This document shows positions 24,644 through 50,558 of a stretch of 64,000 bases of DNA, piece by piece. Numbering within the stretch: position 1 is the first letter of the stretch; every line of letters starts with the position of its first letter. The translations under genes and the position numbers were made by a program. This DNA comes from Polychytrium aggregatum (lineage: Eukaryota; Chytridiomycota; Chytridiomycetes; Polychytriales), in assembly GCF_025602895.1 (NCBI RefSeq), contig NW_026516204.1, positions 248,001-312,000 on the forward strand, given 5' to 3'. The notes beneath the pieces were generated by a model, which ran no database searches, had not been told where the DNA came from, and saw only the letters and a list, made by a program, of their open reading frames with translations.

Positions 24644-25186
24644 TCAGCAACCGTTGCAGTTGTTGCTGATGCAAGTGTTGCAGTTGGCAACGACAGAGGG
24701 AGGAGACATGGCGCCCTGCCAATTGCAAATGTTGTAGCAGTAGCCACGGCAGGACTGGGCCGAGCCACCAACACACTGGGCAGGAGGAGGGGAGACTGGA
24801 GACGGGGCCGGAGCCGCGGAGGTGGCAGGAGGAGGAGGGGATCCGCTGCAACCGTTGCAGTTGTTGCTGATACAAGCATTGCAGTTGGCAACGACAGAGG
24901 GAGGGGATGTGGCGCCCTGCCAGTTGCAAATGTTGTAGCAATATCCATTGCAAGCCTGGGCCGAGCCACCAACACACTGGGCAGGAGGAGGGGAGACTGG
25001 AGACGGGGCCGGAGCCGCGGAGGTGGCGGGAGGAGGAGGAGAACCACCGCAAGTACCACAGTTGTTGCTGATGCAAGCGTTGCAGTTAGCCACCACGTAT
25101 GGAGGAGAGGTGGCGCCCTGCCAGTTGCAAATGTTGTAGCAATATCCATTGCAAGCCTGGGTGGAGCCGCCAACACATGCGGCGTT
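24644..25186 (-). repeat. 201-bp coding tandem repeat, ~2.7 units
   Basis: The same bases recur at 25142, 24941 and ~24740 (ATATCCATTG and its variant), an exact 201-bp period, and encode the three Cys-rich modules of the secreted protein. Confidence 0.9.
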
Positions 25187-25431
25187 CTATGTGGGAGGGT
25201 GAGGAAGGATTGATTCATTGGCATCAGTGGTCAGGCCAAGTACAACCCGATTGCTGTCGCCGGCCGGCTCTGGACAGCGAAATGCTCAGACCCCAAGCAC
25301 ACAGGATCGACAATAGCCATGGCTATCGCTTGTATGCGCAGATGAATCTGCGCCAGCTCCACCGCGATCCGATCACCCACCGCGAAGGAGGCCACAGAAA
25401 GGGCGCAGAGCACAGCAGCGACGGTCTTCAT
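24644..25431 (-). CDS. Secreted protein of three Cys-rich tandem repeats (197 aa)
   Basis: Two exons in phase: 25431-25381 (a 17-residue signal peptide, MKTVAAVLCALSVASFA) and 25186-24644. The mature protein is three copies of a 67-residue module: CVGGSAQACNGYCYNICNW, then an Asn/Cys-rich ISNNCNGC segment, joined by a Pro/Ser/Ala linker (PPPATSAAPAPSPVSPPP). Each module has eight cysteines (the middle copy adds none), suggesting disulfide-knotted extracellular domains. The DNA period is 201 bp, with the modules 85-95% alike. I do not recognise the family; carbohydrate-binding, wall-associated or effector-like roles are possible but unproven. A tail of ...NNCNGC precedes the stop. Copy number may vary between strains because of the tandem layout. 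Confidence 0.8.
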
Positions 25432-32348: not shown

Positions 32349-33169
32349 CTCGGCGGCGAACTATACGGCGGTGCGGGCAGGACTGGGACGGAAGTAGGGG
32401 ATGCGGCCGGTACAGCGGGACGGTCGACAGACGGCCGAATCGGATGCAGTGGCGGCGAATGGCAAATCGCCGAGTCGACAGAGAGCGGGATCGGCGGTGG
32501 ATGGTTTTGTGGCGGCAGAGAGGGAGCCCAGTGGCGAGTGAAGGACTCGGTCGGTGCGAATGGCGCAGGACGGTAGCCGAAGAGGTTGAGCTGCAGCAAG
32601 ATGCAGGTCCAAACGGATCTGAAGAGAGGCAGGAGCGGCGGCCGACAGAGAGGTGCGGCGGATTCCTCGGGTCAGAAAAGAAGGTTCGCCCAGCCGGCTA
32701 CCTGATTGGACACGCAGGCAGGAAGGCAGGAAAGCAGGCAGCTGCTTTGGTGAGCGAGGGTGGATTGATGAGCGAGGGTGGATTGATGGGTGAGGGTGGA
32801 TTGATGGGTGAGGGTGAATTGATGGGTGAGGGATTCCGGTCCAGGCACACGGCGAAACAGGGCAGGCGAGACACGACTGGTGATAGGGGACAGTGGGGAG
32901 GAGCACTCAAAGTTGTACCTGCGGTGGAAGGTGGAAAATACAGACAACGTGGCCCGGCAAGCAGTGCCTGGAGGAGACTGCGAGAGGGGTGGGGAGCAGC
33001 GAGCGGGGGGGTGATTCTGGTGCGTCTGCAGAACAGGCCAGCAGCGGGTAAGAGAAGCAAGCCCGGTCGGGAGGGGGTGAGCGAAAAGGCAAGAGCAGAA
33101 AGACAGGGCGACCACCCTGACGCCGGCTCATCCATTGCATCCAGAGGATCGCCACGGGCGTGAGCCGAT
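32349..33169. other. Intergenic; minisatellite near 32745-32835
   Basis: Upstream of the zinc-cluster gene and left of transposon copy 1. An 18-bp unit of the form GGTGGATTGATGGGTGAG is repeated about five times at 32745-32835. No gene is seen. Confidence 0.6.
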
Positions 33170-33171
33170 TA

Positions 33172-33198
33172 GACGGCAATCCAATAAAAAACGGGACA
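33172..33198 (+). repeat. Left terminal inverted repeat, transposon copy 1
   Basis: Ends in the core AAAAAACGGGACA and includes GGCAATCCAAT as in copy 2. It starts just inside a TA dinucleotide, with one base more than copy 2 at the outer end. Confidence 0.8.
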
Positions 33199-33255
33199 CC
33201 CGGGTTTTGACCATTGATCGAATATTTTGTTACCCAAAACCATCGCGCGCTGGCC

Positions 33256-34107
33256 ATGACCATTCGCCACACATCCGACTTTCGCACCGCCGCATTGCGA
33301 TGCTACGCCCTCATCCATAGCCTGCGTAAGGTCGCCTCCATATTCAGTGTATCCAAGAGCACCATCCATCGATGGCACCGAGGATGCAAACTGGATGACC
33401 CATCCCGGGTCCCAGCTCGCAGATCCACTTTCTTCGAGCAGGCATGTCCAGTCATTCGCACCCTGATTGAACAGGACCCGTTCCAGACTGGTCCTGTGTT
33501 GCGATGCAAGCTCGAGTCCATCCTCCAGAGGAAAGTATCACTCTCACTCTGCCACACTGCCATCCACCGAGCAGGTCTCTCACACAAGAGGGCAACACAC
33601 CTCTACAAGTCCAAGCGACTGGATGAGCGAGTGGCACAGTTCAGGGACCAGGTCCGCTCCATCGACCCACGACGATTCGTTTTTGTCGATGAGACAGGGA
33701 TCAGGAAATCCATTTTCCCTCTCTACGGATACTCACCGAAGGGTGCTCCGCTTCGCCAGCGCAATCACATGAAACACAAGTCTGTCTCGGCTGCATTTGC
33801 CATCAACCACTCTGGTGTGCTGCATCGCATGTACATCCCCACATCATTCAAGACACACTCGATGGTCGAGTTCTTTGAGCGAGCGACCTTCCCAGACGAC
33901 TCTGTGATTGTGATGGACAATGTCAGCATGCACAAGACAATGCCTGTCCTGGACTGCATCGAGCGCCGAGGATGGTCAGTGATCTTCACCCCACCTGCCT
34001 CGCCCGACTTCAATCCCATCGAGAACTTCTTTGGGGTTGAGTTCCTCCAATTTGGGGTTGAGCTCCCCAATCACGCCGCCATTTTGACGCTCAAATCCCT
34101 GGCTTGA
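33256..34107 (+). CDS. Tc1/IS630-family DD34E transposase (283 aa)
   Basis: Cut-and-paste transposase of the element. The N-terminus has a helix-turn-helix (LRKVASIFSVSKSTIHRWHRG) for terminal-repeat binding. The catalytic triad is visible: D145 in FVDETG, D221 in VMDNVSMH and E256 in NPIENFF, with 34 residues between the last two (DD34E, as in Tc1). The C-terminus is short, ending LTLKSLA about 27 residues after the glutamate, and contains a duplicated GVEFLQ/GVELPN motif from a ~20-bp direct repeat. Start taken at the first ATG (33256); the frame is open further up to a TTG. It ends 204 bp before the Fanzor ATG, so the two are probably separate transcripts. The frame is uninterrupted, so it could be active in trans on copy 2. 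Confidence 0.9.
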   Translation: MTIRHTSDFRTAALRCYALIHSLRKVASIFSVSKSTIHRWHRGCKLDDPSRVPARRSTFFEQACPVIRTLIEQDPFQTGPVLRCKLESILQRKVSLSLCHTAIHRAGLSHKRATHLYKSKRLDERVAQFRDQVRSIDPRRFVFVDETGIRKSIFPLYGYSPKGAPLRQRNHMKHKSVSAAFAINHSGVLHRMYIPTSFKTHSMVEFFERATFPDDSVIVMDNVSMHKTMPVLDCIERRGWSVIFTPPASPDFNPIENFFGVEFLQFGVELPNHAAILTLKSLA

Positions 34108-34175
34108 ACCTCTCGGCGATTTTTGAACAGGTCGCTTCCCCAACCAGCCCGCGCAGACGGGTTCCTGCTCTCGGG

Positions 34176-34182
34176 TATAAAT
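34176..34182 (+). promoter_or_regulatory. TATA box of Fanzor copy 1
   Basis: TATAAAT 129-135 bases upstream of the proposed ATG at 34311, in the gap after the transposase stop. The same motif sits at the same distance in copy 2. Confidence 0.6.
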
Positions 34183-34310
34183 GCCACACCTTCGTCCTGC
34201 TGCTTTCTTCCCTCATCTCGCCTTGATCTGATCATCGCGCTATTGTACGATAAAGAGAAGTCTCTGCTCTGACCAGTACCACTGGCAGGCATCCAGCATC
34301 CTCTGCCCCC

Positions 34311-36682
34311 ATGCCTCCGAAGCGTAAGGGCACCGGTGATGGCCAGCCTCAGCCACCCAGGCCCAAGAAAGCCAAGTCACAGTCGGAGCCTGTCTCTGTT
34401 CGTATTCTGACCCCACGCATGCTTGGTCGTCTGTTGCTCCGTCGCTCACCACCACTGCTTCTGCAGATCCAATGGATGTCGATCCCACCGAGCCTGGTCC
34501 ATCTACTTCCTCGAGTACCGGCAAGCGATGTCGCCAGTGCGATGGCACCGACCACGAGCGAAGCAACACTAGCAAATGTCCCAAATACCGGCCCCTCAAG
34601 AGTTCTGTCGTCCCTCTCGTGGATGGAAGGTCATCGGCCCCTCAGTTCAGCTGCTTCAAGCAGACGATGGATGGCTGTTGTCTCAATCCCGCTCTCCGCG
34701 ACAAGATCCAGGCCACCGCCGAGGCCATGACCCAGATCCAGTTCGAGGCATCCAGGCTGCTCAACCTGCACATCCTCCGGTGCATCGAGCAGGATCTTCC
34801 CGTCCCCGTCATCTCCAAGTCCACCCCTGCTTTCGTTCGCCAGTGCTTCACGATTGTCGAGGCCGATGCCCTCTCCCCGACCGGGGATATCGAGCAGTAC
34901 AACGAGCATCTGGTCGCTTCCTTTCGCGACTATCAGACCACTCGGCACGCAGACCTGCCTCCGGCCCCTCGTCTGCCTGATGGTGCTCACAGTCAACTTC
35001 TCACCCTGGCTGTCAATGCCTATGCTACCAACTGCACCACCCACCTCGACCTGGCCTACTGGCGACTCCTTCGCCGCTTCTGCGCTGCCGTCTTCCCAGC
35101 CAACAAGCATAAGCACGAAGCCATCGAGGCCTGTCTCGAGCTCTTCGAGAAACCGGACTCGACTCCACCCAAGGCCGATCTCGAGTTCCTCTATCCAGAC
35201 TTTGGCCACATCCTGGACGAGTTTCGGTACAGCAGCGACCAGGACCGCTTCCGGGCCCTCCATCGCCTCTCACACCATGTGGGAATCCTCGCCCGGGACA
35301 AGATGGTCGACAATGTCCACAAGTGGATCGACTGTGACATGCCCGCCCTCCGAGTCACCGAGCTGCAGCGCCAGGCCAAGCTGGACAGCCTCACTACCCA
35401 AGGCATTCCCTCCGACGACAAGAGGTTCACCAAGGCCAAGTCTGAGCTCGGCACCACCAAGTCCAAGATCAACAAGCTGGCCGCCAGGATCAAGTGGGCA
35501 CTCAAGCAGCTCGCCGTCGACGCTCCTCCGGCCGTGTGCACGATAGTTCCTCTATGCACTGCCACGGCCAAGTATGTCAAGATTGACACGGTCACTCTCT
35601 GGCAACTCCTTGACACCGAACATCGTCTTGACCTCACCTGGGACAAGCTCAAGGAAGAAGGTGAGGACGGTGTCAACAACCAGGATCGTCTCTGGCGCAG
35701 CTGCTTCAAGCTGCGTAGTTCCCTCTTCCGTGACCGGGATATCAATCACAAGCTGTTCAACTACGAGATCAGCACCGATGGCATTGGATGCACCATCGGT
35801 CTCGTCAAGTTTGTGCGTCGAACCGATCGCACCGAGACCATCGAGCCTCCTCCGACTGCCGAGCAGCGTATCCAGGCCCACATCGGCGACCCAGACCCCA
35901 ACCGCACCACTTGGATTGGCATCGATCCTGGAGTCGGCTCCATCTTCACGGCGGTCATCCAAGCACCGGGCCACCAAGACGAGGTGGTCTCGTTCTCCAA
36001 TGGCCACTACCAGCACATGTGTGGCCATACGTCCAACACCAAGTGGCACAATATCATGAAGTATCGACTCAGCATCGAGACCTGGATGTCGACCACCCCC
36101 TCGCCCAAGGTGTCGTCCTCGGAAGCCTTCAAGGTCCATCTCACCCATGTCCTGCGACCGGAGCTGCGAGTGCAGCTCGACTTCCACCTTGGCAAGAAGG
36201 CTCGTCACCATCGCTTCACTGGCCACAAGAGACGCCAAGTGGCCGTCGACAGGATGTGCAAGGCCGTCCTGAAGCACGCCCCGATACGGACCGATGTGGT
36301 GATCGCCTTTGGCAATGCGTCATGGCGACAAGGCAAGGGCTATGCATCCAGCCCTCGGAGGCAGCGGTTTGCTCGGTACTTTGAGCAATTCGAGCACCAC
36401 CGACGCCGTCCCAATCACCATCATGGAAGCGTCAAGGTGGCCTCGACGAACGAGTTCAACACCTCGCAAGTGTGCTCCAAGTGCCTGGAGCCAGTTCGGT
36501 TGGAAGGACTCGATGCGCCCAGTGTTGCGAATTCCCACTTTGTCAGGAGCTGCAAGAATCCCAGCTGCCGGACAGTGTGGAATCGCGACGTCAATGCGGC
36601 GCGCAACATGATCACAGTATGCAGGTCGATTGTGGAGATCGGAGAGCGACCGGCGGTCTTCACTCGGAGGCTGCCAAAGTGA
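34311..36682 (+). CDS. Fanzor (TnpB-like RNA-guided endonuclease), copy 1, ~768 aa
   Basis: Eukaryotic homologue of TnpB/Cas12, an omega-RNA-guided DNA nuclease carried by the transposon. Proposed exons: 34311-34401 and 34467-36682, joining in phase across a 65-bp GT-AG intron; without it the frame still opens at 34472 (736 aa). Exon 1 supplies nuclear-localisation-like PPKRKG and RPKKAK. Next comes a zinc knuckle (CRQCDGTDHERSNTSKC), a long helical N-terminal region, then RuvC: D517 in WIGIDPGVGS, GNASWRQGKG, a zinc-finger insert (TSQVCSKCLEP at C700/C703, paired with SCKNPSC), and D738 in WNRDVNAARNM. The catalytic glutamate could not be placed with confidence. All landmarks needed for activity appear intact. 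The gene lies immediately inside the right end; the 87-bp tail to the element end may encode part of the guide RNA. Confidence 0.93.
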
Positions 36683-36769
36683 TCTGTTTTATTTCTTATG
36701 GCTTTGCTTGACGCAAGCACATCACATACTACGTGTTCATGGAAACGGCTATATTTTCTGAATAAAGTG
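36683..36769 (+). ncRNA. Candidate omega-RNA 3' segment, copy 1
   Basis: Short non-coding tail between the Fanzor stop and the element's right end. It is well conserved with copy 2 (CTATATT, CATGGAAACGGC and CATCACATACTAC shared), apart from the 11-bp deletion at the end. By analogy to known Fanzor/TnpB loci, the guide RNA overlaps the ORF's 3' end and runs past the right end into flanking DNA. No fold was computed. AATAAA at 36761 could serve as polyadenylation signal for the Fanzor mRNA in this copy. Confidence 0.3.
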
Positions 36770-36771
36770 TA

Positions 36772-38150
36772 GACGGCAGAGATCGAGGCACAACTCGGGC
36801 GTCGCACAGCCATCAGCAAGCATCGCTTGTGCACGCCTTGCCGGGCTGCATCTGCCGGCTTGGCCTGCTGCTGTTGCATCTGGGGCTGGACTGGGCGAGG
36901 GAGATGGGGACGACGGACCATGGAGGGATGGGGTGGTGCAAGTATCGCAGCGATGCAGATGCTGTAAGCGATGCGGCTGCTTGCAGGCGATGTGGGCGAT
37001 GTGGGCGATGTGGGCGATGTGGGCGATGTGGGCGATGCAAGCGTCGCAGGTGGGGGCGGTTTGTGGACGATGCGATCGGATGCAGCCAGTACACCGTGCT
37101 GAGAAACAGTGGGACAGGCTATTGCGTTCACAAGCACGCCGATGCTATCGTGCACCCGGCCAAGAAGACCAAGTGCATCAAATCGCCTTCCTGGGCGTCC
37201 GTCCATGGAGTCTCCGATGCTCATCGCCCAATCTGCGGTGGATGTGGCTGGCTGGCCGGGCCTTGTTGAGGGGTCTCCACTGCGACCCACTGGGAGGGTT
37301 GATGTGGGGAGAGGGCTTGCGGTGTATTGGCAGAGACGGGCGACATTCGCATGGCGTGCGAGCAGCACCGGCATTCCTCCCCGGCTGCGATGGATCATCC
37401 CGAGGACCGGCATCGTCATGCCCGCAGCCCATGCGATTCATGCCCGCAGCCCATGCATCCAATTCCGTCCTCGCCAGAACCACGGCGCCGGGCGGTGGCC
37501 CTTCGCGTCTTGTCCCTCGTTCCCCCACGGCGTTTGGCGCTCCCATGCCGTGGCGCAGTGGGCCACATTCGAACCACGGGTCGGACCGGACCGGAGCGCA
37601 TCGCCACAACTTTTGCACCAACCGCCGGCGCGCCGCCCGCGTCGATAGCCATGGTCGATAGTCTTGGTCGATAGTCTTGGTCGATAGTCATGGTCGATAG
37701 TCATGGTCGATTGACTTGGCTGTTAACCTTTCCTTGATCATGCTCCTTGGCCAGCCATCGCTTGCTTTTGTCCACCGTCGGTTCACCCACCCACCCGTCG
37801 CCCGCCGTGCTGGCCAACACAAAGCCCGGTTCTCCTCACCAGCCACCCACGAGTATTGCCGACTTTCCCACCCCACTTGCCGCTGTGGCACCCCTGTCCT
37901 GGGCTGTCCTGGCCCATCCTGCTCTCCCCACCAATTGCATCTGCGCGTCGGTCCATTCTGGCCATCGCTCGCCATCGCTCGCCTCACCCGCAGCCCGCCA
38001 GCTCCCATCCCCACGGTTTGTTGGCCGCCGCTCCTTCACTTCCATAAATCCCCTTTGACCCCCCCCCGTCGCTCAAACCTCGTCGCCCTCCCCCGGCTTG
38101 CCGCTCCCCGCTCAGCTTCCCTCACAGGCCCCTCCCCAGATCACAACAAG
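36772..38150. other. Intergenic; GATGTGGGC array
   Basis: Between transposon copy 1 and proline dehydrogenase. A 9-bp unit GATGTGGGC (or close variant) is repeated about six times at 36985-37040, and a TCGATAGTC(T/A)TGG unit about four times at 37645-37710. No gene is recognised. The proline dehydrogenase promoter must lie in the part near 38100. Confidence 0.5.
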
Positions 38151-40417
38151 ATGAGCCCCCTGCTGGCCATGGGCGCCTTCGCTAGAGCAGCGCACATCAC
38201 CGTCAAGTCCCCCACGGCTCGTCTCGGCAACCGCATGTTTGCTTCGAGCACAGACGCCACCACCCATGTCGGTCGGCCGCTGGCCAAGAAAACCACTTGG
38301 GAGCTGTGGCGATCGCTGCTGGTACGAGCCGAGACCACTCAGAGACATGGCGGATGGGATCCTGACGCAGGAATGGGAACAGACTTTGGGCAACGGCTGC
38401 TCCAAGCCATGGCAGTGCCCGCCAGTTGCTCGAGAATCGCTTTGGTCTGGCCTGCCGAGCACACTATTCTGACTCACCCGGCTCTCCAGGTCTTCAGGGT
38501 CTGCACCATCCAGCCGGTCGTCAAGCACGCCGACCGCATCATCGCGGCCTTCGACAGCATCGGGCTGTCGTCGCTCTCTAACCTAGTCATCAAGTACACC
38601 TTCTACAATCAGTTCTGCGCCGGCGAGACCCCCAAGGAGATCAAGTCGCTCATCGACAGCTACCAAGCCAACGGCATTCGCACCCTGCTCGAATATGCCT
38701 ACGAGTCCGATATCGAGAGCCAAAAGTCGGGCGGCATGTCTCCAGGCAGCAGCTCTGTTGTCAAGGCCCTTGCCGATACGATCGACTATGCTGCCCTCGG
38801 CAAGGACAGCTTCACGGCTATCAAGATCACGGCCCTGCTCGATCCGCAGGTTCTGGAGCGCATCAGCAACGTCTGCAACCGCATCCAGGCTTCGTTCTTT
38901 GCCTCTGTGGATCTGGAGCGCACCCCGAGCTTGTCTGCAGCACATTCCAAGAGTGACCTCGTCCGAGTTCTCTCGTCGTTGCTGGACATCCCAGCACAGG
39001 AAGCCGCTGTCCTTGCTGATACGCTGTTCCCAAAGGTGAGCCCCTCCTGAAGCCGGAGTATATCGGTGCATGGCGTGTGTGGGCAATCAAGGCGGAAATG
39101 ACCATACAACATGCGGACACCGCCGTATCAGCATTCAATCACCGCTAGATGAGGTCCTCTGCCTCGCTCACCCAGCATGCCGCTTGCCTTCTCCAGAGCT
39201 CGACTGTCGACTGGGTAGACTTCAGCTCCGTCGTTACCCCCAGTAACCCCGTTCTCAGAGGGCATCTGTCAAAGTTGGCCATCAAGGATGAAACCTTGGC
39301 CTCTGCCGCTGACCTGGATGCCCTGGACAGGACCCTTGAGCACACCAAAGCGCTCTGTACCCGGTCCAAGCAACTCGGTGTTTGGATGGCCGTTGACGCA
39401 GAATTCTACTACTGCCAGCCCGCTATTGACCATATCTCGCGGGAGCTCGAGCGCATCTTCAACAAACCCAGCCAGCCGGGCGACTTGCCCCTTGTCCACA
39501 ACACCCTGCAGTGCTACCGCAAGGATGCCCTGTGGAGACTCAGCGTGGAGTCTGAGCGGGTAAGTACGTCGCTGCTTGCCCTGCATGGGTCCAGGCGGAT
39601 GGTATTGGCTTTGTGCAAGAGCGTCCGAGCTGACATCTGCGATCGTCTGTCTTGATCGACTGCGGACTCTTGATTCTCCTCGCTTCTTCAGGCTCGGCGA
39701 CTTGGATATGCTCTAGGCATCAAGGCTGTTCGGGGTAAGACACATTATCGCACCGTGAGTCCGCTGCGGCATCATCCACTTCCTGGACTGATAGGCGAAT
39801 CTGTTGTCCTGGGACATGGCACCCAGGCGCCTATGTCGTTCACGAACGAGCCAGGGCCAAGACCCTGGGTACTCCCGACCCCGTTTGGCCGACCATCGAG
39901 GGCACCCACTGGTCCTACAACACCATCATACAGCTGATGCTCGAAAAGATCGCCAGCGGCACCAACGCTGGGTTGGTGATTGCCGGGCACAACGAGGAGT
40001 CTGTTCGGAGAGCTCGCGAGAAAATGGCCGAGCTCGGCATCGAGAACGATTCACCTCGAGTCAGGTTTGGCCAGCTCCAAGGTAAGAGGGGCCCCACTTT
40101 GCTCTACGTCAGTGATACTGCCCCCATGCACTTTGCTCTTCGCCAGTGATACTGCTCCGTGCACAGACATCCTCATTCTTTGGCGACCCTTTCGTTGCTC
40201 TGTTGTTTGATGCTCTCCAGGAATGATGGACCACCTCACCCTCTCCTTGGCCAACGATCGCTACCGAGCCATGAAAGCCACCTGCCAGGGCCCGGTCAAC
40301 GTCTGCATCCCGTACCTGATTCGCCGGGCGCAGGAAAACTCCTCGGCCCTCGCTGGTGCTGGGCGAGAGCTGCATGTCATCTGGAGCGAGCTCAAGGCCC
40401 GCCGGCTATTCTTCTAG
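38151..40417 (+). CDS. PUT1: Proline dehydrogenase (524 aa), mitochondrial
   Basis: FAD-dependent enzyme of the inner mitochondrial membrane that oxidises proline to pyrroline-5-carboxylate, the first step of proline use. Six exons close exactly in phase: 38151-38321, 38490-39035, 39197-39559, 39692-39734, 39827-40081, 40221-40417. Landmarks: FRVCTIQPVVKHAD, YNQFCAGETPKEI, LLEYAYESD, MAVDAEFYYCQPAID, NTLQCYRKDALWRL, KAVRGAYVVHERARA, VIAGHNEESV, and the substrate-binding signature PYLIRRAQENSSA near the C-terminus. Residues 1-45 (MSPLLAMGAFARAAHITVK...) are basic and lack acids, a presequence. The whole barrel is present; no damage is seen. Confidence 0.97.
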
Positions 40418-40630
40418 CGATATTGCGGATGTTTGAATCGCGGCGGAGTGAATGTGTGGCAGACCGGCGGGTGGGAAGGCCAAGATGCTGTCCATGCTCT
40501 TGTCCTGCCTGTCTCTGCGCTATGTGTTATGTGCTATGTGCTGTGTGTTGTGTACTGCCCATACCCGATCCCTGGGAAGCACCAGCGTCTCATCCTTCAC
40601 CAAACGACCGCCTCAGGCTTCCATTCAGTA

Positions 40631-40948
40631 GATCCAGAAAGAAACGGGACAGTCGTAGGCTCCAGTGGGCAAGCCGTACGACTATTTCCCGTCCTGGTTG
40701 GCAATCTCTTTGTTTTCGTTGGCTTGGTCTTGAATATACATGGTCGATCTCCTGTGTCGATGTGGGAGTATGGTACATTCACTCGATGTGGGGTGGTGTC
40801 TTTTGCTTGCGGGAGCCATCTGAGAGAGAAAGCGTCCTTGATTCAGATCCAGAAACACATCACTGAATGGTCATGGCCAGCGTGCAATTTGTTGGGGCGA
40901 TAACATACCCGCTCAACGACCAAAATCCGTTTTTTATTGGATTGGCTG
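40631..40948. mobile_element. 318-bp MITE with Fanzor-transposon ends
   Basis: Flanked by TA at 40629-40630 and 40949-40950. The left end reads GATCCAGAAAGAAACGGGACAG, like the right terminal repeat of the Fanzor transposon; the right end, read inward on the minus strand, is CAGCCAATCCAATAAAAAACGG, like its left repeat. The ~80 bp next to the right end also resemble the first bases of the transposase gene in copies 1 and 2, including TGGTCATGGCCAGCG. It is therefore an internally deleted, non-autonomous derivative or close relative of the same family with no coding capacity. Confidence 0.8.
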
Positions 40949-41189
40949 TATTCTGCGCATTCAATCATGAGCGGGGCTGGTTTGTTCATGACCGAGAAGG
41001 GCGAACAAACGCACTTGGCTGCCAACAACATGCCGCCGCCGTGTCACAGCCGCCGCCTCAAGCCACAGGCAAGCCTTGGCCTCCCTCGCCATCACCTTCG
41101 TCCGCCATCACCTTCGTCCGCCATCACCTTCGTCCGCCATCATCTTCGTCCACCATCATCTTCGCCCAACCGTCTCGCGCCCGGCCCCA

Positions 41190-42371
41190 ATGTCGTCCCT
41201 GCCGCTCTACAAAGTCATCGTTGCTGCCGACAGCTCGAGCCCCTCCCAGCAGGCCATCATGCACGGGGTGGAGCTGTGCCAGCGGGTTGCCCCGAACCCA
41301 TGTCGTCTGATCATCATCCATGTCACCGCCCTCAACCCACGGAGCAGTCTGCCGTACATGTATGCGATTTTGACCTGCAATCGGGCCCGCATGGCTGCGC
41401 CCCCATGCCATCTGTCGGTTTATGATCCTGCGCCGTCGCTTTGCAAGTCGATTGATCATCCACGACACCATCCGCCGTTGCATGTCCGCTCATCCTCTGG
41501 CCGATGCGTCCTGCTCGTCCGTTGGCATTGGACCCAACTCATTCGCAGCGACAATATGGAAAAGTCCTTCAATTACGAGATCAAAGTGAGCGAGAAGCAG
41601 GAGATCCAGCTCTGCAAGGATTTTATCGAGCGAAGCGTGGCCGACAAGGTACAGTCCCGGAGCTGAGGACAAACGACATTACGCTGTTGTGAGCAACGAG
41701 GCAACCGCGCCCGCCGGCCCGTCATGATGGTGGTGCTCAGTCCGGGAGATGCGCTTGTCTGGGCTCCGAAGACTCTCTATCGACAGACCCATAACATCCA
41801 CACCCAACTCTGGCTGCCCGTTCTATGCAGGTGCCATACGACTTTGTCCAAATCGAAGGCGAGGGCGACGTCGGCCCCCTGATCGAAGAGGTACGAGCAG
41901 CCCAGCCATCGATGTACAGGGGCTTGAGCAGCGGCTGCAGTGCTGCACCGACCAAAGAGCAATGCCTGTGCTGAAACGGGCGTCCTCTCCTATCCCTATC
42001 CCGATTCCCGTTGCCTCGATCTGCGGCAGTTTGTCAAGGAATCACACCCGGATACCAACATGCTGGTGCTCGGAACACGGAATCTGGGAACTGTCCAAAG
42101 GTGGGTTCCAATCTGGCCGGACGGCGAAAGCTCATAGACTCCTCGGCAGCTCCAGAGCCAAGTGTCAGCGGCGCTTGGAACGCCACAAGCATCCCGCGCT
42201 GCCTCTATCGCCTGCTTTCTCCTGCGCTCTAACTTATCCCCTCGGTTAACCGCTATGCCTCGTCGTCGACCCGGTCGCCGCAGCAGATGGGCGCTGGGGT
42301 CCGTCAGCGACTACTGTCTCCACCACGTAACATGCCCTGTGCTGATTGTCAAAGATACCGCGGCCCAATAA
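41190..42371 (+). CDS. Universal stress protein (USP) domain protein (161 aa)
   Basis: Five exons close in phase: 41190-41359, 41549-41648, 41831-41890, 42030-42100, 42287-42371. The product is one UspA-type alpha/beta domain: beta-1 YKVIVAADSSSPSQQAI, then RLIIIHV, a helix ending IERSVADK, DTNMLVLGTRN, and the nucleotide-loop signature GSVSDYCLHHVTCPVLIVK (G-x2-S pattern for ATP-binding USPs). USP proteins help cells endure stress and often bind ATP; the exact role is unknown. The start is the ATG directly before the conserved first strand. No targeting signal is seen, so cytosolic. Confidence 0.92.
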
Positions 42372-43107
42372 AACCGAGTAGTGCCTGCCTGGCAGCAGCA
42401 GCCACAGCGTCTCTGGATCCGCATCCGCATCTGCATCCGCATCTGCATCTGCATCTGCATCTGCATCTGGATCGGCATCTGGAACTGCATCTGGAACTGC
42501 ATCTGGATCTGGAGTTGAGGAATATATGCAAAAGCGTCAGCAGCTTGCCCTTACCGTCTGCACTCAGCCAGACAACACACCGTCGACACGACAGGCGAGA
42601 TCAGAGTCAAGGTTATGGTATCCTCAGATGCAGCGAGGGTCTCTCGCCACTAGGAGAGGTAAAGCGATTTGACAAAGCATCATTTCGAGTGCATCGGGGG
42701 GGGGAAAGCGCGGGAGGTCTGTGGATAGGGATACTTACCGATTACGGATCCGCGGGCAATCACGGAGCGACATGCCGGTGGCCAAGAACGAGGCTGCGAC
42801 GGCCAGCCATGTCATCGCACCGCAGACTGCATTTGAGCAGACGCAGATGAGAGCAGACGCAGATGAGAGCAGACGCAGGTCAGAGGCAGGTTAGAGCAGA
42901 CGCAGGTGAGAGGCAGGTCAGAGGCATCTCTGGTTCGGCGACATCAGCAAGACCGGCGACACAGAGAAAAAACGCCACGTGAGGCGCAGGCGCGGCGCGC
43001 AGCAGCGCCGCTGATTGGTCTGGCGGTGGTCGTCTCGTCGCCTGCCCGACACGGCTGTCTTTGCGCTTGCCTCTGCAGCCGCCTTTCGATCAGCAGCCCC
43101 AATCTCC
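42372..43107. other. Intergenic, hexamer arrays
   Basis: Holds the hexanucleotide repeat above and, at 42835-42930, a GAGAGCAGACGCAG-like unit repeated several times. The part next to 43108 should hold the SR-protein promoter. No gene is seen. Confidence 0.5.
42415..42512. repeat. (CATCTG/CATCCG)n hexanucleotide array
   Basis: About fifteen hexamer units just downstream of the USP gene's stop codon, varying between CATCTG, CATCCG and GGAACTG-containing forms. Confidence 0.9.
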
Positions 43108-44510
43108 ATGTCTGAAGGCAAGAAAAGCACCCTCTTCGTCTCGGGAGTCAGTCTCCGCACCCGAGCCAAGGATCTCGCCTATGAGTTTGAGCGGTACGTC
43201 GCTGCTGCAAGCCTTTGTGCATTGTGTTCGTGCTGTCGCCGCAACTGCCTGGTGCTGCCGCTTGCGTTGATGGCTGGGTGCTAGATCACAAGCTGACACC
43301 TGCCTGCTGCTCTCCACTCAAATGCTGCCCAACTCTGCGTCACAACACACACTTGGCTGCTCCGCTTGGCCGATCTATGCCACCGGCTTCGCATCCAATG
43401 CTCCTCCGCGCCCAATCGACCCTGCAACCGACGCTATTCAGCTATGGGCGGCTCGTGAGATGCGACATCCCTGCTCCCCGACATGGATCGAGATCACCGT
43501 ACGCACCGCGCATCCCTGCATCTTTGTGACTCCGTGTCTGCGACCACCACGCACAGCTGCTCGATCGCTGCCTATTCTGGCCTTGGGATCGCCGGCACTC
43601 ATGCTGGCTTTGTCGTCCTCCTTTGCATTCGGTAACAGCGCTACCTACGCCTTTGTCGAGTTTGAAGACCGCCGAGATGCAGAAGACGCATACTATGAGA
43701 TGCAAGGTAGGCGTTTCGATGGATTCACCTTGGATATTCAGGTGCGTATCTCCTCTTCATCGCATGGCAGGGAGCGCGGACGGCTGCTATCCAGAGCGGG
43801 TTCGGACGCAGATCGCCCGGACACATGGCGGGCCGTTTCGGAGCGGGGGAATCCCCTTGGCAGCCTGGATCGCTCAGGCAGCCACTCTATCAAGGATCGA
43901 AGCATACTTGCGACCGGGTCCCCCCCCTGCCTGTAGTGAAGCGATCGGCGCAACACGACTGGAAAGTCACCGCCCAACCCCTCCCACAGCCCGGTGCCCG
44001 CTGCTCACCGAGCCTGCCTTTCTCTCTACCTCTCTACCTCTCTCTATCGATCGTGCATAGTGGGCAAAAAGCGCACCCAGCAGAACCTGGCGATACGATG
44101 ATCGCCGTGACTCGGACAGACCTCGAAGCCGCGATAGTGGACGGGACCGAGATCGCGAGCGGGACAGAGAGCCGGATCGAGACGGACGCGACAACCGGGA
44201 CGATCGGGACGACCGAGACCGGGATAGAGACCGACGCCGCTCTCGATCGCCCCGCCGAGGCAGCGACCGGGATGATGCCGATCGCTCGTCTAAGCGCGGC
44301 GACCGAGATCCTGATTCTAAGGATGGTGGTGAGCGCGATCGAGAGGATCAGCAAGACGCTCGCGATGGCAAGGGATCGCCCAGCAGAGACGCGGAGGGTA
44401 GACAGGCCTCGGCTAGCCCCGTGAAACGAGATACTAACGGCTATTCGAGCCCTGGAGTGCTCTCACCAAGGCTGGAGGAAGAGGGCAACATGTCCCCACG
44501 ACAGTGGTGA
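43108..44510 (+). CDS. SR splicing factor, RRM plus RS domain (231 aa)
   Basis: Four exons close in phase: 43108-43193, 43442-43498, 43639-43741, 44061-44510. Residues 1-80 form an RNA-recognition motif: RNP2 STLFVSGVS, RNP1 ATYAFVEFED, and the closing FDGFTLDIQ. It is followed by WAKSAPSRTWRYDD and then a long arginine-aspartate/arginine-serine region (RDRDRERDREPDRD, RRRSRSPRRGSDRD) typical of SR proteins that bind exonic enhancers and recruit U1/U2AF in the nucleus. Length matches small SRSF proteins. The last exon's first base was chosen at the ATAG acceptor because it keeps the phase. The dipeptides are dominated by RD rather than RS, which is unusual. Confidence 0.92.
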
Positions 44511-45158
44511 GGGACCGGACGCACAGCCGCCACAATATGAACGGGGCCATGCCCCTGCCTTTTCTCTCACTCTCACTCTCACTCACTTTCACGCCGCTGA
44601 CCCGCCGGTTCCGCCGAGTCTGGTGAGCAGTGAGAGCAGATGGATAGTGCCTCTGCACCGCCGTTTCTTCCCTCCGTGGCGGTGCAGCAACGTTTGTTGC
44701 TGTTGTTGTTGCTCGGGCACTGCGCTCATGTCATGCATCCAACCATTGCCAAAGCCCTTGACGTCCCACCGCCTATTCTTCAATGCTATGGACAGCGAAC
44801 GCTCCTTTGGGTTCGTCCCCAAGCTTGCTTGCTCTCCCGCTCATGCTTTGCCTTTTCCGCCCCGCGCCTTCTTTTTTCTTCTTGATCTTGGCTGTGTTTG
44901 ACCTTGCCATGCCACGCCATGTTGCTTTTCCTCTTTTGCGTCCGTCCTGGGCCTCTTCCTTGGTGTGCCGTGCGTCCGCCTCAGCTCCGAACCTTGCCGA
45001 TCTCTTGTGCCTCTCGCCCTCTTCCGCAGCTCGGCATCCACCAATACATCGTGTGTTTGATTGTCTGTGCTGCTGGCCAAATGCGCGGTGCTGTCGATCG
45101 AGCCGCGGCCAGCGGCTGCTTGCCTGAGAATTGCCTGGCCCTGGCAACGCTCGCAAAG
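44511..45158. other. Intergenic, no gene seen
   Basis: Between the SR protein gene and the right end of transposon copy 2. It contains a CTCACT-rich run at 44570-44590. Nothing else is recognised. Confidence 0.45.
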
Positions 45159-45160
45159 TA

Positions 45161-45186
45161 CACTGTATTCAGAAAAAAACGGGACA
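45161..45186 (-). repeat. Right terminal inverted repeat, transposon copy 2
   Basis: CACTGTATTCAG followed by an A-tract and CGGGACA; matches the left repeat in about 20 of 26 positions and begins just after a TA dinucleotide. Copy 1 lacks its inner part. Confidence 0.9.
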
Positions 45187-45257
45187 ATATAGCCGTTTCC
45201 ATGAACGTGTAGTATGTGATGGCATGCGTCAAGCAAAGCCACAAGAAATAAAACAGA
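45161..45257 (-). ncRNA. Candidate omega-RNA 3' segment, copy 2
   Basis: 97-bp tail from the Fanzor stop to the element's right end, homologous to 36683-36769 of copy 1 and with the full terminal repeat. In this family the guide RNA is expected to extend from here into the host flank (bases below 45160). Structure and expression are not shown by sequence alone. Confidence 0.3.
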
Positions 45258-47629
45258 TCACTTTGGCAGCCTCCGAGTGAAGACCGCCGGTCGCTCTCCG
45301 ATCTCCACAATCGACCTGCATACTGTGATCATGTTGCGCGCCGCATTGACGTCGCGATTCCACACTGTCCGGCAGCTGGGATTCTTGCAGCTCCTGACAA
45401 AGTGGGAATTCGCAACACTGGGCGCATCGAGTCCTTCCAACCGAACTGGCTCCAGGCACTTGGAGCACACCTGCGAGGTGTTGAACTCGTTCGTCGAGAC
45501 TACCTTGACGCTTCCATGATGGTGATTGGGACGGCGTCGGTGGTGCTCGAATTGCTCAAAGTACCGAGCAAACCGCTGCCTCCGAGGGCTGGATGCATAG
45601 CCCTTGCCTTGCCGCCATGATGCATTGCCAAAGGCGATCACCACATCGGTCCGTATCGGGGCGTGCTTCAGGACGGCCTTGCACATCCTGTCGACGGCCA
45701 CTTGGCGCCTCTTGTGGCCAGTGAAGCGATGGTGACGGGCCTTCTTGCCAAGGTGGAAGTCGAGCTGCACTCGTAGCTCCGGTCGCAGGACATGGGTGAG
45801 ATGGACCTTGAAGGCTTCCGAGGACGACACCTTGGGCGAGGGAGTGGTCGACATCCAGGTCTCGATATCGAGTCGATACTTCATGATATTGTGCCACTCA
45901 GTATTGGACTTGTGGCCACACATGTGCTGATAGTGACCATTGGAGAACGAGACCACCTCGTCTTGGTGGCCCGGTGCTTGGATGACCGCCGTGAAGATGG
46001 AGCCGACTCCAGGATCGATGCCAATCCAAGTGGTGCGATCGGGGTCTGGGTCGCCGATGTGGGCCTGGATACGCTGCTCGGCAGTCGGAGGAGGCTCGAT
46101 GGTCTCGGTGCGATCGGTTCGACGCAGAAACTTGACGAGGCCGATGGTGCATCCAATGCCATCGGTGCTGATCTCGTAGTTGAACAGCTTCTTGTCCACG
46201 TCCCGTTCTTGGAAGAGGGAACTACACAGCTTGAAGCAGCTGCGCCAGAGACGATCCTGGTTGTTGATGCCGTCCTCACCTTCTTCCTTGAGCTTGTCCC
46301 TGGTGAGGCCAAGGCGTTTCTTTGGACCAAGGAGTTGCCAGAGAGTGACCGTGTCAATCTTGACATACTTGGCCCTTGCAGTGCATAGAGGAACCATCGT
46401 GCACACGGCCGGAGGAGTGTCAAGAGTGAGCTGCTTGAGTGCCCAGTTGAGTCTGGCGGCCAGCTTGTTGATCTTGGACTTGGTGGTGCCGAGCTCAGAC
46501 TTGGCCGTGGTGAACCTCTTGTCGTCGGAGGGAATACCTTGGGCAGTGAGCTCGTCCAGCTTGGCCTGGCGCTGTAGCTCGGTGACTCGGAGGGCGGGCA
46601 TGTCACAGTCGATCCACTTGTGGACATTGTCGACCATCTTGTCTCGGGCGAGGATTCCCACATGGTGTGAGAGGCGATGGAGGGCCCGGAAGCGGTCCTG
46701 GTCGCTGCTGTACCGAAACTCGTCCAGGATGTGGCCAAAGTCTGGATAGAGGAACTCGAGATCGGCCTTGGGTGGAGTCGAGTCCGGTTTCTCGAAGAGC
46801 TCGAGACAGGCCTCGATGGCTTCGTGCTTATGCTTGTTGGCTGGGAAGACGGCAGCGCAGAAGCGGCGAAGGAGTCGCCAGTAGGCCAGGTCGAGGTGGG
46901 TGGTGCAGTTGGTAGCATAGGCATTGACAGCCAGGGTGAGAAGCTGACTGTGAGCACCATCAGGCAGACGAGGGGCCGGAGGCAGGTCTGCATGTCGAGT
47001 GGTCTGATAGTCGCGAAAGGAAGCGACCAGATGCTCGTTGTACTGCTCGATGTCCCCGGTCGGGGAGAGGGCACCGTCCTGGACGATCCTAAAGCACTGG
47101 CGGATGAATGCAGGGGTGGCCCTGGAGATGACGGGGACGGGAAGATCCTGCTCGATGCACCGGAGGATGTGCAGGTTGAGCAGCCTGGATGCCTCGAACT
47201 GGATCTGGGTCATGGCCTCGACGGTGGCCTGGATCTTGTCGCGGAGAGCGGGATTGAGACAACAGCCATCCATCGTCTGCTTGAAGCAGCTGAACTGAGG
47301 GGCGGATGACCTTCCATCCACGAGTGGGACGACAGAACTCTTGAGGGGCCGGTATTTGGGACATTTGCTAGTGTTGCTTCGCTCGTGATCGGTGCCATCG
47401 CACTGGCGACATCGCTTGCCGGTACTCGAGGAAGTAGATGGACCAGGCTCGGTGGGATCGACATCCATTGGATCTGCAGAAGCAGTGGTGGTGAGCGACG
47501 GAGCAACAGACGACCAAGCATGCGTGGGGTCAGAATACGAACAGAGACAGGCTCCGACTGTGACTTGGCTTTCTTGGGCCTGGGTGGCTGAGGCTGGCCA
47601 TCACCGGCACCCTTACGCTTCGGAGGCAT
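45258..47629 (-). CDS. Fanzor (TnpB-like RNA-guided endonuclease), copy 2, ~768 aa
   Basis: Same gene structure as copy 1: exon 1 47629-47539, 65-bp intron 47538-47474, exon 2 47473-45258. All RuvC and zinc-finger landmarks are present (IDPGVGS, GNASWRQGKG, TSQVCSKC, SCKNPSC, WNRDVNAARNM). It differs from copy 1 at about 40 residues, most of them in two blocks: around residues 145-175 (RATPAFIRQCFRIVQDG) and around 335-480, where for example LLGPKKRLGLTRDK replaces LLDTEHRLDLTWDK. The RuvC/zinc-finger part differs at only about five sites. No frameshift or stop. Since its own transposase is broken, it would depend on a transposase supplied elsewhere for movement. Confidence 0.92.
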
Positions 47630-47757
47630 GGGGGCAGAGGATGCTGGATGCCTGCCAGTGGTACTGGTCAGAGCAGAGACTTCTCTTTATCGTACAATAG
47701 CGCGATGATCAGATCAAGGCGAGATGAGGGAAGAAAGCAGCAGGACGAAGGTGTGGC

Positions 47758-47764
47758 ATTTATA
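47758..47764 (-). promoter_or_regulatory. TATA box of Fanzor copy 2
   Basis: Minus-strand TATAAAT equivalent at the same distance (about 130 bp) upstream of the Fanzor ATG as in copy 1. Confidence 0.6.
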
Positions 47765-47832
47765 CCCGAGAGCAGGAACCCGTCTTTGCGGGCTGGTTGG
47801 GGAAGCGACCTGTTCAAAAATCGCCGAGAGGT

Positions 47833-48542
47833 TCAAGCCAGGGATTTGAGCGTCAAAATGGCGGCGTGATTGGGGAGCTCAACCCCAAATTGGAGGAACT
47901 CAACCCCAAAGAAGTTCTCGATGGGATTGAAGTCGGGCGAGGCAGGTGGGGTGAAGATCACTGACCATCCTCGGCGCTCGATGCAGTCCAGGACAGCCCT
48001 TGTCTTGTGCATGCTGACATTGTCCATCACAATCACAGAGTCGTCTGAGAAGCACCCTTCGGCGAGTATCCGTAAAGAGGGAAAATGGATCTCCTGATCC
48101 CTGTCTCATCGACAGAAACGAATCGTCGTGGGTCGATGGAGCGGACCTGGTCCCTGAACTGTGCCACTCGCTCATCCAGTCGCTTGGACTTGTAGAGGTG
48201 TGTTGCCCTCTTGTGAGACAGACCTGCTCGCTGGATGGCAGTGTGGCAGAGTGAGAGCGACACTTTCCTCTGGAGGATGGACTCGAGCTTGCACCGCAGC
48301 ACAGGACCAGTCTGGAACGGGTCCTGTTCAATCAGGGTGCGAATGACTGGACATGCCTGCTCGAAGAAAGTGGATCTGCGAGCTGGGACCCGGGATGGGT
48401 CATCCAGCTTGCATCCTCGGTGCCATCGATGGATGGTGCTCTTGGATACACTGAATATGGAGGCGACCTTACGCAGGCTATGGATGAGGGCGTAGCATCG
48501 CAATGCGGCGGTGCGAAAGTCGGATGTGTGGCGAATGGTCAT
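47833..48542 (-). pseudogene. Broken DD34E transposase, copy 2
   Basis: Homologous to the transposase at 33256-34107. The first ~165 codons are intact (helix-turn-helix and the first catalytic VDETG). After SPKGA, at about 48055, 142 bp present in copy 1 (approximately 33748-33890) are missing, shifting the frame. The remainder with VMDNVSMH and NPIENFF follows in another frame to LTLKSLA. The protein cannot be a functional transposase. Confidence 0.9.
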
Positions 48543-48599
48543 GGCCAGCGCGCGATGGTTTTGGGTAACAAAATATTCGATCAATGGTCAAAACCCGGG

Positions 48600-48625
48600 T
48601 GTCCCGTTTTTTATTGGATTGCCTG
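48600..48625 (-). repeat. Left terminal inverted repeat, transposon copy 2
   Basis: CAGGCAATCCAATAAAAAAC followed by GGGACA when read inward on the minus strand; a TA dinucleotide lies outside. Confidence 0.9.
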
Positions 48626-48821
48626 TAAAAGGACACAGGACCCGAATCCCACCCGCCATGGAACTGGCGTTTCCCACCGGTCTCCACGTGACGTCCCGCG
48701 TTCAAGCTCCGCCCTCCCGGCACGACTCCCGAGGCCAACCTGACTCACCCCTGCTCGATCAGCGCGGGCGGGTCTCGGCCTCCTCTGGCCCCATCGACCT
48801 ATCGATACCTGATCTGCCGCC

Positions 48822-50558
48822 ATGCTGTGCGTTCAGACACGGCTTTCCCTGTCTCGCCCGGCCCAACGGGCCCATGTCTCCTGGATCCGCTGCTCGCTCT
48901 TTCATTCGGCTCTGCCCCGACTGCACCAACGCGATCCACCGCCCCAGCAGCCGATCCGCATCCGCCAACGCACCCGGAGAGGCGGGTCGACTCACTGGAC
49001 GACACTGGAGTCGCCAGTGCCATCCCGCACCACCGATCCAGCCGGTCCAGCCGGTCCAGGCACTGTCCGCGATGCATCGCGTTGGGTAATCGTCGACCAT
49101 GTCGAGTCGTTCGAGACGCTTGCCCAGCAGCCCGCTGCAGCCTCGGCCTCGGCCCCGACCCCGATCTCCAACCCAATGCTGACGCGGCTCTTCAAGCTGC
49201 CGGGGTTCGGCCCGGTCTGGGACAAGCTGTCGGTTATCTTCCTGCCCCGGGCCTATACCCACACTACATATCCTGAATATCTGCCATACACATTCTGGCA
49301 GTTGGTGCACAACGTCTCCGGCACGGTCACCGGCACCCTCTCGACCCAAGCGTTGCTCCACGCCCTGGGCATGGGCGCTGCCGCATCGTATGGACTCGCT
49401 GCGACGACCAACTGGATCATCAAGGACGGATTTGGCATGCTCGGCGGTGTGCTCTATGCCGGTTTGATCGGCAATCGCTTCGACTCTCATCCCAAGCGAT
49501 ACCGCTTCCTCAGCGCCATCGCCATTCAAGCCGCAACTTTTGCCGAACTGCTGACCCCGCTGTTCCCGCAGTTTTTCCTGCCGATGGCGTCGTTCTCAAA
49601 CGTTGGCAAGAACATTGGCTGGCTCGCCGCAAGCGCAACCAAGGCTTCGATGCACAAGGGCTTTGGCAAGGAGGACAACCTCGGCGACATTACGGCAAAG
49701 TGCGGGGTGCAATCCACCGCAGCGGGGCTCATCGGCACAGGCGTGGGCGTCGGCTTGAGCTGGACGTTGGGCACGGAGCCAATGACGTTGATGCTGGCCT
49801 TTGTTCCGCTCTCGGCTCTGAACATCTGGTCGACCATCAAGTCCAACCAATGGGTCATCACGCGGACCCTCAACGTCGAACGCGGAGAGCTCTTCATGTC
49901 CGAGGTCTTTGTCGCCGGCGACTTGCCCAAGAGCGTCTCCCCTGATGCAACCGGTGACCGAGTCGACCATGCGCTCAGTCTCGCAGTCGTCGGTCTCGAT
50001 CCCGCATTCGTCCCGTCTCCAGAGTCGATATCCTCCAAGGAGCACTTTATGGACTCGTATGCGAGCTGCTTTGTGGCTCCTTTGTTGATCGAGCCACCGA
50101 TGGCGCCCTATGTCGAGTCGTTTGGTCCAGCCGAGTCTGCATTCATCTTTGGAACGAGCTGGGCCAAGGCAGACGAAAAACGTGGAGATGCACGGCTCCC
50201 CCAATCTCAGCCAAAGTACCGAACCATGATTGTGCCCGGCCCGATCGATCCAGCCAAGGATGCGGCCACGCCTGGTGTCGCCCTCTGGTTTTTGGAAGAC
50301 GCCACCGGTGCCGACACAATCAAGGGCTTCTTCCATGCTTGTATAATCCGCAAGATGCTCGAGGGTGTTCCGCGGTCGTCGTGGGAGACAGCAGCAGCAT
50401 CTGGATCGCTTGAGGAACTGAGGATGGGCATCATCACGCGCGCCCATGAGGTCCTCGAGAGTCGGTTCGACGATATTCGGGACGCCATGAAGCAGAAGGG
50501 CTGGGTCATTGAAAAGAGCCACCTTGCGGACGTCAACAGCCGTATTTGCATTGATTAG
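48822..50558 (+). CDS. RUS family / DUF647 membrane protein (578 aa)
   Basis: Intronless. Residues ~1-105 are basic and low in acids, resembling a mitochondrial or plastid-like presequence. The rest matches the RUS (ROOT UVB SENSITIVE)/C16orf58 family: FLPRAYTHTTYPEYLPYTFWQ, TLSTQALLHALGMG, NWIIKDGFGMLGGVLYAG and hydrophobic stretches near 255-370. RUS proteins are found in plants and most eukaryotes; plant members act in vitamin B6/UV-B-linked signalling and the biochemical function is not known. The 5' end lies about 195 bp from the left end of transposon copy 2, which may affect transcription. The ATG at 48822 is the first in the frame. Confidence 0.88.
   Translation: MLCVQTRLSLSRPAQRAHVSWIRCSLFHSALPRLHQRDPPPQQPIRIRQRTRRGGSTHWTTLESPVPSRTTDPAGPAGPGTVRDASRWVIVDHVESFETLAQQPAAASASAPTPISNPMLTRLFKLPGFGPVWDKLSVIFLPRAYTHTTYPEYLPYTFWQLVHNVSGTVTGTLSTQALLHALGMGAAASYGLAATTNWIIKDGFGMLGGVLYAGLIGNRFDSHPKRYRFLSAIAIQAATFAELLTPLFPQFFLPMASFSNVGKNIGWLAASATKASMHKGFGKEDNLGDITAKCGVQSTAAGLIGTGVGVGLSWTLGTEPMTLMLAFVPLSALNIWSTIKSNQWVITRTLNVERGELFMSEVFVAGDLPKSVSPDATGDRVDHALSLAVVGLDPAFVPSPESISSKEHFMDSYASCFVAPLLIEPPMAPYVESFGPAESAFIFGTSWAKADEKRGDARLPQSQPKYRTMIVPGPIDPAKDAATPGVALWFLEDATGADTIKGFFHACIIRKMLEGVPRSSWETAAASGSLEELRMGIITRAHEVLESRFDDIRDAMKQKGWVIEKSHLADVNSRICID

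Follow-up and report, generated by a model that had tools for sequence, protein, structure and literature searches.

Two decayed copies of an abundant Fanzor1-carrying IS630/Tc1 transposon family in Polychytrium aggregatum and one-sided marks at its left ends that may trace homing

The stretch of Polychytrium aggregatum DNA analysed here (64,000 nucleotides, contig C112 in our numbering, 248001-312000; hereafter the window) contains two Fanzor open reading frames of 780 amino acids each, counted from stop to stop, at 34340-36682 on the forward strand and 45258-47600 on the reverse strand. Comparison of the window with itself reveals inverted repeats with arms of 2831 and 573 nt and 97-98% identity between the two regions, and the two ORFs are parts of two inverted copies, A and B, of one IS630/Tc1-type element and not of two systems. 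The first-pass annotation had described two full-length Fanzors on Tc1/IS630 (DD34E) transposons; the Fanzor, the IS630/Tc1 DD34E assignment and the TA flanks stand at the level of the family, whereas the two separate systems turn out to be inverted copies that are 97% identical. The element limits that it had set, 33172 and 48625, agree with the TA-flanked ends. The features of the two copies and of the DNA between them are the following, in window coordinates.

33168..33171, + strand: ATTA before copy A, host W-T plus the TA of the target-site duplication (TSD), a TAM-like motif proposed from the asymmetric flank counts
33172..36769, + strand: element copy A, a Fanzor1-bearing IS630/Tc1 element, damaged; TA-flanked ends, 97% identical to copy B and about 96% to the other best copies
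33172..33178, + strand: altered left tip of copy A, GACGGCA instead of CAGGC, identical to the copy's own right flank at 36772-36778
33256..34107, + strand: transposase of copy A, 283 aa from the ATG, with the D/D/E motifs and without the family C-terminus (DDE_3, E 1e-20)
34311..34398, + strand: basic, NLS-like N-terminal part of Fanzor A, separated from the main frame by one missing G on comparison with sister copies
34340..36682, + strand: main reading frame of Fanzor1, copy A (RuvC D at IDPGVG, 35921; alternative Glu at NEFNTS, 36449; D at NRDVNAA, 36581)
36770..36778, + strand: TA of the right TSD and first 7 nt of the right flank, the predicted guide side, at the copy A junction
40620..40960, - strand: non-autonomous relative of about 330 bp with similar terminal repeats, 74% identical to the left end of the element over 65 nt
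45161..48625, - strand: element copy B, damaged; 97% identical to copy A, TA on both sides
45161..45376, - strand: right-end region of about 216 nt (last ~115 nt of the ORF plus the 3' region), proposed omega-RNA scaffold on the basis of retention in short derivatives, fold and low 4-fold diversity
45258..47600, - strand: main reading frame of Fanzor1, copy B; the N-terminal ATG, at 47629, lies in another frame
48033..48542, - strand: transposase of copy B, 169 aa, shortened by an additional internal deletion of ~140 nt and without the later catalytic part, on comparison with copy A
48626..48629, - strand: TTTA before copy B, a TAM-like motif proposed from the asymmetric flank counts

Elsewhere in the window, 440-1583 and 2104-3247 form a 98% inverted repeat of 1144 nt with two Sel1-repeat protein ORFs facing apart, three direct repeats of 201 nt lie at 24647-25249, an ORF with UVB-sensitive (RUS) protein domains adjoins copy B at 48813-50555 (+), and an 18-bp tandem repeat is found at 52377-52520.

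Both window copies are decayed. Where most of the sister copies that we fetched read CTCTGGTTCG, each window copy lacks one G (copy A has CTCTGTTCG at 34390-34402), and this loss puts the segment that begins MPPKRKG out of frame with the rest of the Fanzor. The two window copies (L001 and L003 in our list) and a third copy, L031, are all 1 nt short and, when read from the MPPKRKG ATG, stop at the same codon. Because the single missing G breaks the frame, the 'nuclear-localised first exon' of the first-pass annotation is no exon, and an intron or first-exon model for the window copies is ruled out by the other copies, which with the additional G have one open ORF. The full-length frame is open in 33 of the 40 best copies, a share to be taken as an upper view since this set was picked by similarity of the Fanzor ORF and is biased to complete ORFs; 32 of the 33 have the ATG and are thus single, intronless ATG-to-stop ORFs, and the protein of 788-790 aa starts MPPKRKG. 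A further four of the 40 copies have a single stop in the ORF. Single-base states, the frameshift of the window copies included, depend on the assembly. Since both transposases are truncated as well, and the right terminal repeat of copy A lacks 11 nt, including one side of a predicted terminal stem, the window pair can no longer be called intact in coding terms, nor does its description as two full-length, functional candidates hold: the N-terminal frame and the transposase are damaged in both copies and the right end in copy A, while open ORFs are found in other copies of the genome.

On the sequence of its protein, we assign the family to Fanzor1, carried by an IS630/Tc1 element. Both window ORFs carry IDPGVG, NEFNTSQVCSKC, CKNPSC and NRDVNAA, so that the RuvC aspartates (IDPGVG, NRDVNAA) and the zinc-finger insert named in the first-pass annotation can be read in each of them. 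The comparison with TnpB/Fanzor profiles that it had suggested gave matches to the Pfam Cas12f1-like TNB domain above the cut-off in both ORFs (E 6e-9 and 2e-9), together with a weak match to NCBIfam guided_TnpB that lies under its cut-off. According to the available text of PMC3627910 and PMC10711439, Fanzor1 proteins are recognised by DPG, a relocated Glu, a C4 finger, RD and TDG. In the A2 alignment, the Fanzor1 pattern D-X(125-275)-[TS][TS]XX-C4 zinc finger-X(5-50)-RD is found as D539, T718 S719 Q V, C722..C725, C748..C753 and R759 D760, and both window copies have the same motifs. The DPG at RuvC-I lies in IDPGVG (538-543) and the TDG motif in STDGIG (488-493); the alternative (relocated) Glu, E715, six residues before C722, is shared by at least 90% of 17 copies and is also found in the two window copies. 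Similarity to SpuFz1 (PDB 8gkh) is weak (E 0.1-0.7) and C-terminal only, the 51 C-terminal residues aligning at E 0.1. PHROGs matches, all of them in the C-terminal region, comprise two transposase families and one family of unknown function, and no viral relatives were detected in one IMG/VR scan.

The transposase of the family copies matches the IS630 model NF033545 above its cut-off (E 1e-35). Its catalytic residues are D145, D221 and E256, where 34 residues separate the second D from the E (DD34E), and terminal inverted repeats and a TA target duplication are present in the family. The full protein has 310 aa and is found in 8 of the 40 best copies; a search of PDB sequences returned no match at E 0.01.

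The family is abundant in this genome, a Fanzor1-cargo IS630/Tc1-type DNA transposon. Genome-wide counts refer to 64.7 Mb in 418 contigs, in which we found 413 matches to the left-end motif (with at most one mismatch) and 314 exact matches to the right-end motif, ending in GTG; both counts are inflated by sites that are present on two contigs, and the left motif is possibly common to related families. A search with the copy A ORF gave, among the best 40 of 1044 candidates, 40 full-length matches, the others being about 96% identical to copy A. Two copies with no recognisable left or right end (L002 and L021) were dropped from the counts. A right end from the list could be assigned to 63 of the first 100 listed left ends, and 37 are unpaired; 51 of the paired elements measure 3.36-3.78 kb, four 1.1 kb and eight 270-371 bp. 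More distant (69%) relatives of the 3' part of the Fanzor ORF occur at C90:330989-331395 and C99:20696-21066 and possibly represent a second Fanzor family.

The left ends carry two marks that the right ends lack. First, where the left end is exact (TACAGGCAATCC...), the base before the TA is T at 174 of 180 ends genome-wide and another base at six. At the 35 distinct sites of the 40 copies, T precedes the TSD at 33 and A or T stands one position further out at 29, whereas the mirror base, A after the right TA, is found at 8 of 34, which is the background level. A symmetric preference for TA insertion sites would be mirrored on the right; since no mirror is seen, the asymmetry is as expected of a TAM, which we predict to be 5'-(A/T)TTA. 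The 97% T could partly be a base that the element brings along. The A/T preference next to the T speaks for a host base, as does a 17-bp tandem repeat at one site (L037), the register of which fits a single TA: the repeat is in register when TA is counted once and T is taken as a host base.

Second, some copies deviate from the family left tip, CAGGC, and the altered letters frequently repeat those of the right flank, as in copy A; a tip reading CGGGCGATCC was treated as the normal tip of a subfamily. At 11 of the 16 altered-tip sites with a readable right flank, the tip shares at least 3 nt (3 to 9) with its own right flank; at the other five, fewer than 3 nt are in common. The shared prefixes sum to 63, compared with a mean of 7.3 and a maximum of 36 in 100,000 permutations. 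In nine of these 11 the flank-derived tip has the usual length and is thus in register. At three of the 11 (C24:473697, C46:543397 and C399:51407) part of the shared letters also fits a family tip, and among 28 sites with unaltered tips, three share CAG with their own flank. The test was made without L082, which has a right end without TA, without one stretch that runs beyond a contig end, and without 10 of 14 further altered tips, for which the fetched stretch showed no right end. The same altered tip occurs with the same flank on a second contig in four cases (L016/L028, L007/C156, C9/C79 and C46/C415).

The right end itself is proposed to encode an omega-RNA. In the four short derivatives that we read, two of about 300 bp and two of 1.1 kb, the left end has been kept together with 216 nt or more of the right end. 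Fold z-scores for the right end are -1.4 over 222 nt and -2.0 over 105 nt (copy L016, terminal stem). Of 16 blocks compared, the last 40 codons show the least diversity at 4-fold sites (0.025, 22 sites; two others are at 0.027-0.028 and the remainder at 0.04-0.19), which is compatible, weakly, with an RNA that overlaps the end of the ORF. The right end had no match in Rfam.

No clean empty site was found for 32 of 33 joined flanks among the best 40 of 51 and the best 40 of 74 candidates; a few junction-spanning matches (L020, L033 and L035), of which we read some, were classed as left ends, given that the adjoining right flanks look like the end of the element. In these three cases the copies are inserted directly before ends resembling related short elements. 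At the L037 site the element is absent from haplotig C10, but this haplotig differs there by one tandem-repeat unit. Several sites are occupied on two contigs. In four same-site pairs (L009/L014, L010/L024, L016/L028 and L017/L032) the flanks have 0-2 mismatches in ~780-900 bp, with 21-nt gaps in the right-flank alignment of two pairs, while the elements are 40-119 mismatches apart, mainly in the interior. In three pairs the interiors differ about as much as those of random copies (less in L017/L032) and the outer parts mostly agree; the right sides of L009 and L014 agree over the last 52 nt only, and L011 and L026 have the right flank alone in common. At two further sites with the same altered tip (L116 versus L007, and L118 on C9 versus C79:131743), a derivative of 300 bp or 1.1 kb faces a full-size element. 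The differing interiors of same-site copies may reflect gene conversion or mixing in the assembly.

Common variants lose their linkage, down to the baseline, within ~30-60 bp in most parts of the element (more slowly at 800-1300). A retroelement control (13 copies of one subfamily, 22 common sites) showed low linkage too, and we have discarded micro-mosaicism as evidence for homing on this ground; the micro-mosaic variation and the swapped interiors could be assembly effects. Retroelement copies are clustered genome-wide, for example on C115 and C173, where 1284-aa open frames have identical RVT_1 scores.

Insertion into TA sites is established for the IS630/Tc1 superfamily, and the transposase would move the element into such sites. 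We consider it probable that the window holds two decayed copies of an abundant Fanzor1-cargo IS630/Tc1 family whose Fanzor performs RNA-guided cutting of unoccupied sites followed by copying-in of the element (homing). The Fanzor protein would bind a right-end RNA that reads into the right flank as guide, would take 5'-(A/T)TTA on the left of the site as its TAM and, where the site is unoccupied, would cut directly to the right of the TA; repair would copy the element in from the occupied chromatid or homologue, and the element would be retained and spread by homing. During such repair the cut left end could anneal to the copy in the occupied site, and letters of the right flank could stay in register in the new left tip. 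A left end with right-flank letters points, in our reading, to a break right of the TA in the unoccupied site, and such letters are to be expected of an RNA-guided nuclease that finds its TAM on the left and takes its guide from the right. Within this model we infer, from sequence, the omega-RNA, the use of the guide, the cutting and homing as the origin of the scars. Tentatively, as a possibility somewhat short of an even chance, we suggest that Fanzor homing has left natural footprints in a eukaryotic genome in the form of the left-end scars, and that template switching between copies has also shuffled their interiors. 'Cut-and-copy' is an idea put forward for TnpB and raised as a possibility for Fanzor (PMC10432273, PMC11870625, available text); homing has been proposed for Fanzors but is unproven.

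The Fanzor ORF is under purifying selection, even though most transposases in the same copies are broken. Variants found in at least four of the 40 copies comprise 107 synonymous, 99 non-synonymous and one stop, a synonymous excess over the neutral expectation of 28:69:3 (synonymous:non-synonymous:stop, transition weight 3.5) that indicates such selection. These data bear on the possibility that the family's Fanzor has lost its activity and that the marks are old traces. Damage to both window copies would fit such a history, as would the mean pairwise difference among copies, 97 of 2373 ORF positions; we nevertheless regard it as rather unlikely, given that the synonymous bias extends to singleton variants (105 synonymous, 124 non-synonymous and 4 stop) and that 32 of the 40 best copies, a set chosen by Fanzor similarity and hence an upper view, are open over their full length.

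Selection also bears on a reading in which the Fanzor is a passenger, and target choice by the transposase together with aberrant integration (a longer duplication, loss of the left tip) makes the marks. The two terminal repeats differ, which leaves room for a one-sided preference of the transposase for T, and faulty integrations are possible for Tc1/IS630 elements. A longer duplication does not, however, predict the normal length seen in nine of the 11 flank-derived tips, which annealing to an inserted same-site copy does predict, and the Fanzor is under purifying selection in copies of which only 8 of 40 retain the full 310-aa transposase. We judge this reading unlikely. It is very unlikely that random breaks and recombination between occupied and empty homologues, without a nuclease of the element, made the altered tips: many sites do lie on two contigs, as in a diploid assembly, and same-site copies with different interiors exist, but left and right ends should then change alike, whereas a single genome-wide search, limited to changes of the last base, found no right tip with a non-G base before the TA as against the 314 right ends in GTG, and breaks far from the TA would presumably be repaired via flank homology.

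The kind of element described here is already known; what is new is the one-sided T, a TAM-like mark, and the left tips derived from the right flank. Fanzor elements present in many copies have been reported, as have elements that unite Fanzor with Mariner (PMC10711439, PMC3627910, available text), and we found no description of natural junction scars of this kind in the accessible parts of the literature on Fanzor or TnpB homing and cut-and-copy. According to the available text of PMC10432273, what Fanzors do biologically is unknown; if the homing reading is true, it would answer what a Fanzor is for. The genome holds dozens of nearly identical natural copies that differ in their guide flanks and that come with a predicted TAM and legible repair scars; this makes the homing hypothesis directly testable, and the family offers another Fanzor1 whose TAM is predictable before measurement.

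Among known systems, SPu-1/SpuFz1 of Spizellomyces punctatus is likewise a Fanzor1 in elements with terminal inverted repeats, TA target duplications and many copies (PMC3627910, PMC10432273, in the text available). The proteins are similar in their last C-terminal residues, to which detectable similarity is confined. They differ in length (633 aa for SPu-1, 790 aa here), and the available text of PMC3627910 and PMC10432273 records no transposase within the SPu-1 repeats, whereas our family has one of IS630 type, upstream of the Fanzor ORF. In the S. punctatus elements a conserved CA precedes the left repeat, where our family has WT, and CATA is the TAM found by test; the TAM of GtFz1 is TTAAN; the short derivatives of our family are reminiscent of the S. 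punctatus 'ghost' elements, which are without ORF but with the right end (all from the available text of PMC10432273). PUl-1 and PGv-1, like our family, combine a Mariner-type transposase with Fanzor1 in one element; they are different elements, likened here by description, and no footprints are described for them in the available text of PMC3627910. Compared with the TnpB of IS200/IS605, the present case is set in a eukaryote, involves a DDE cut-and-paste transposase and is known from genomic traces alone; the proposed logic is the same as that of TnpB cut-and-copy or gene drive (PMC10432273; PMC11870625, in the text available), with a guide from the right flank, a TAM on the left and cutting of element-free DNA that favours the element.
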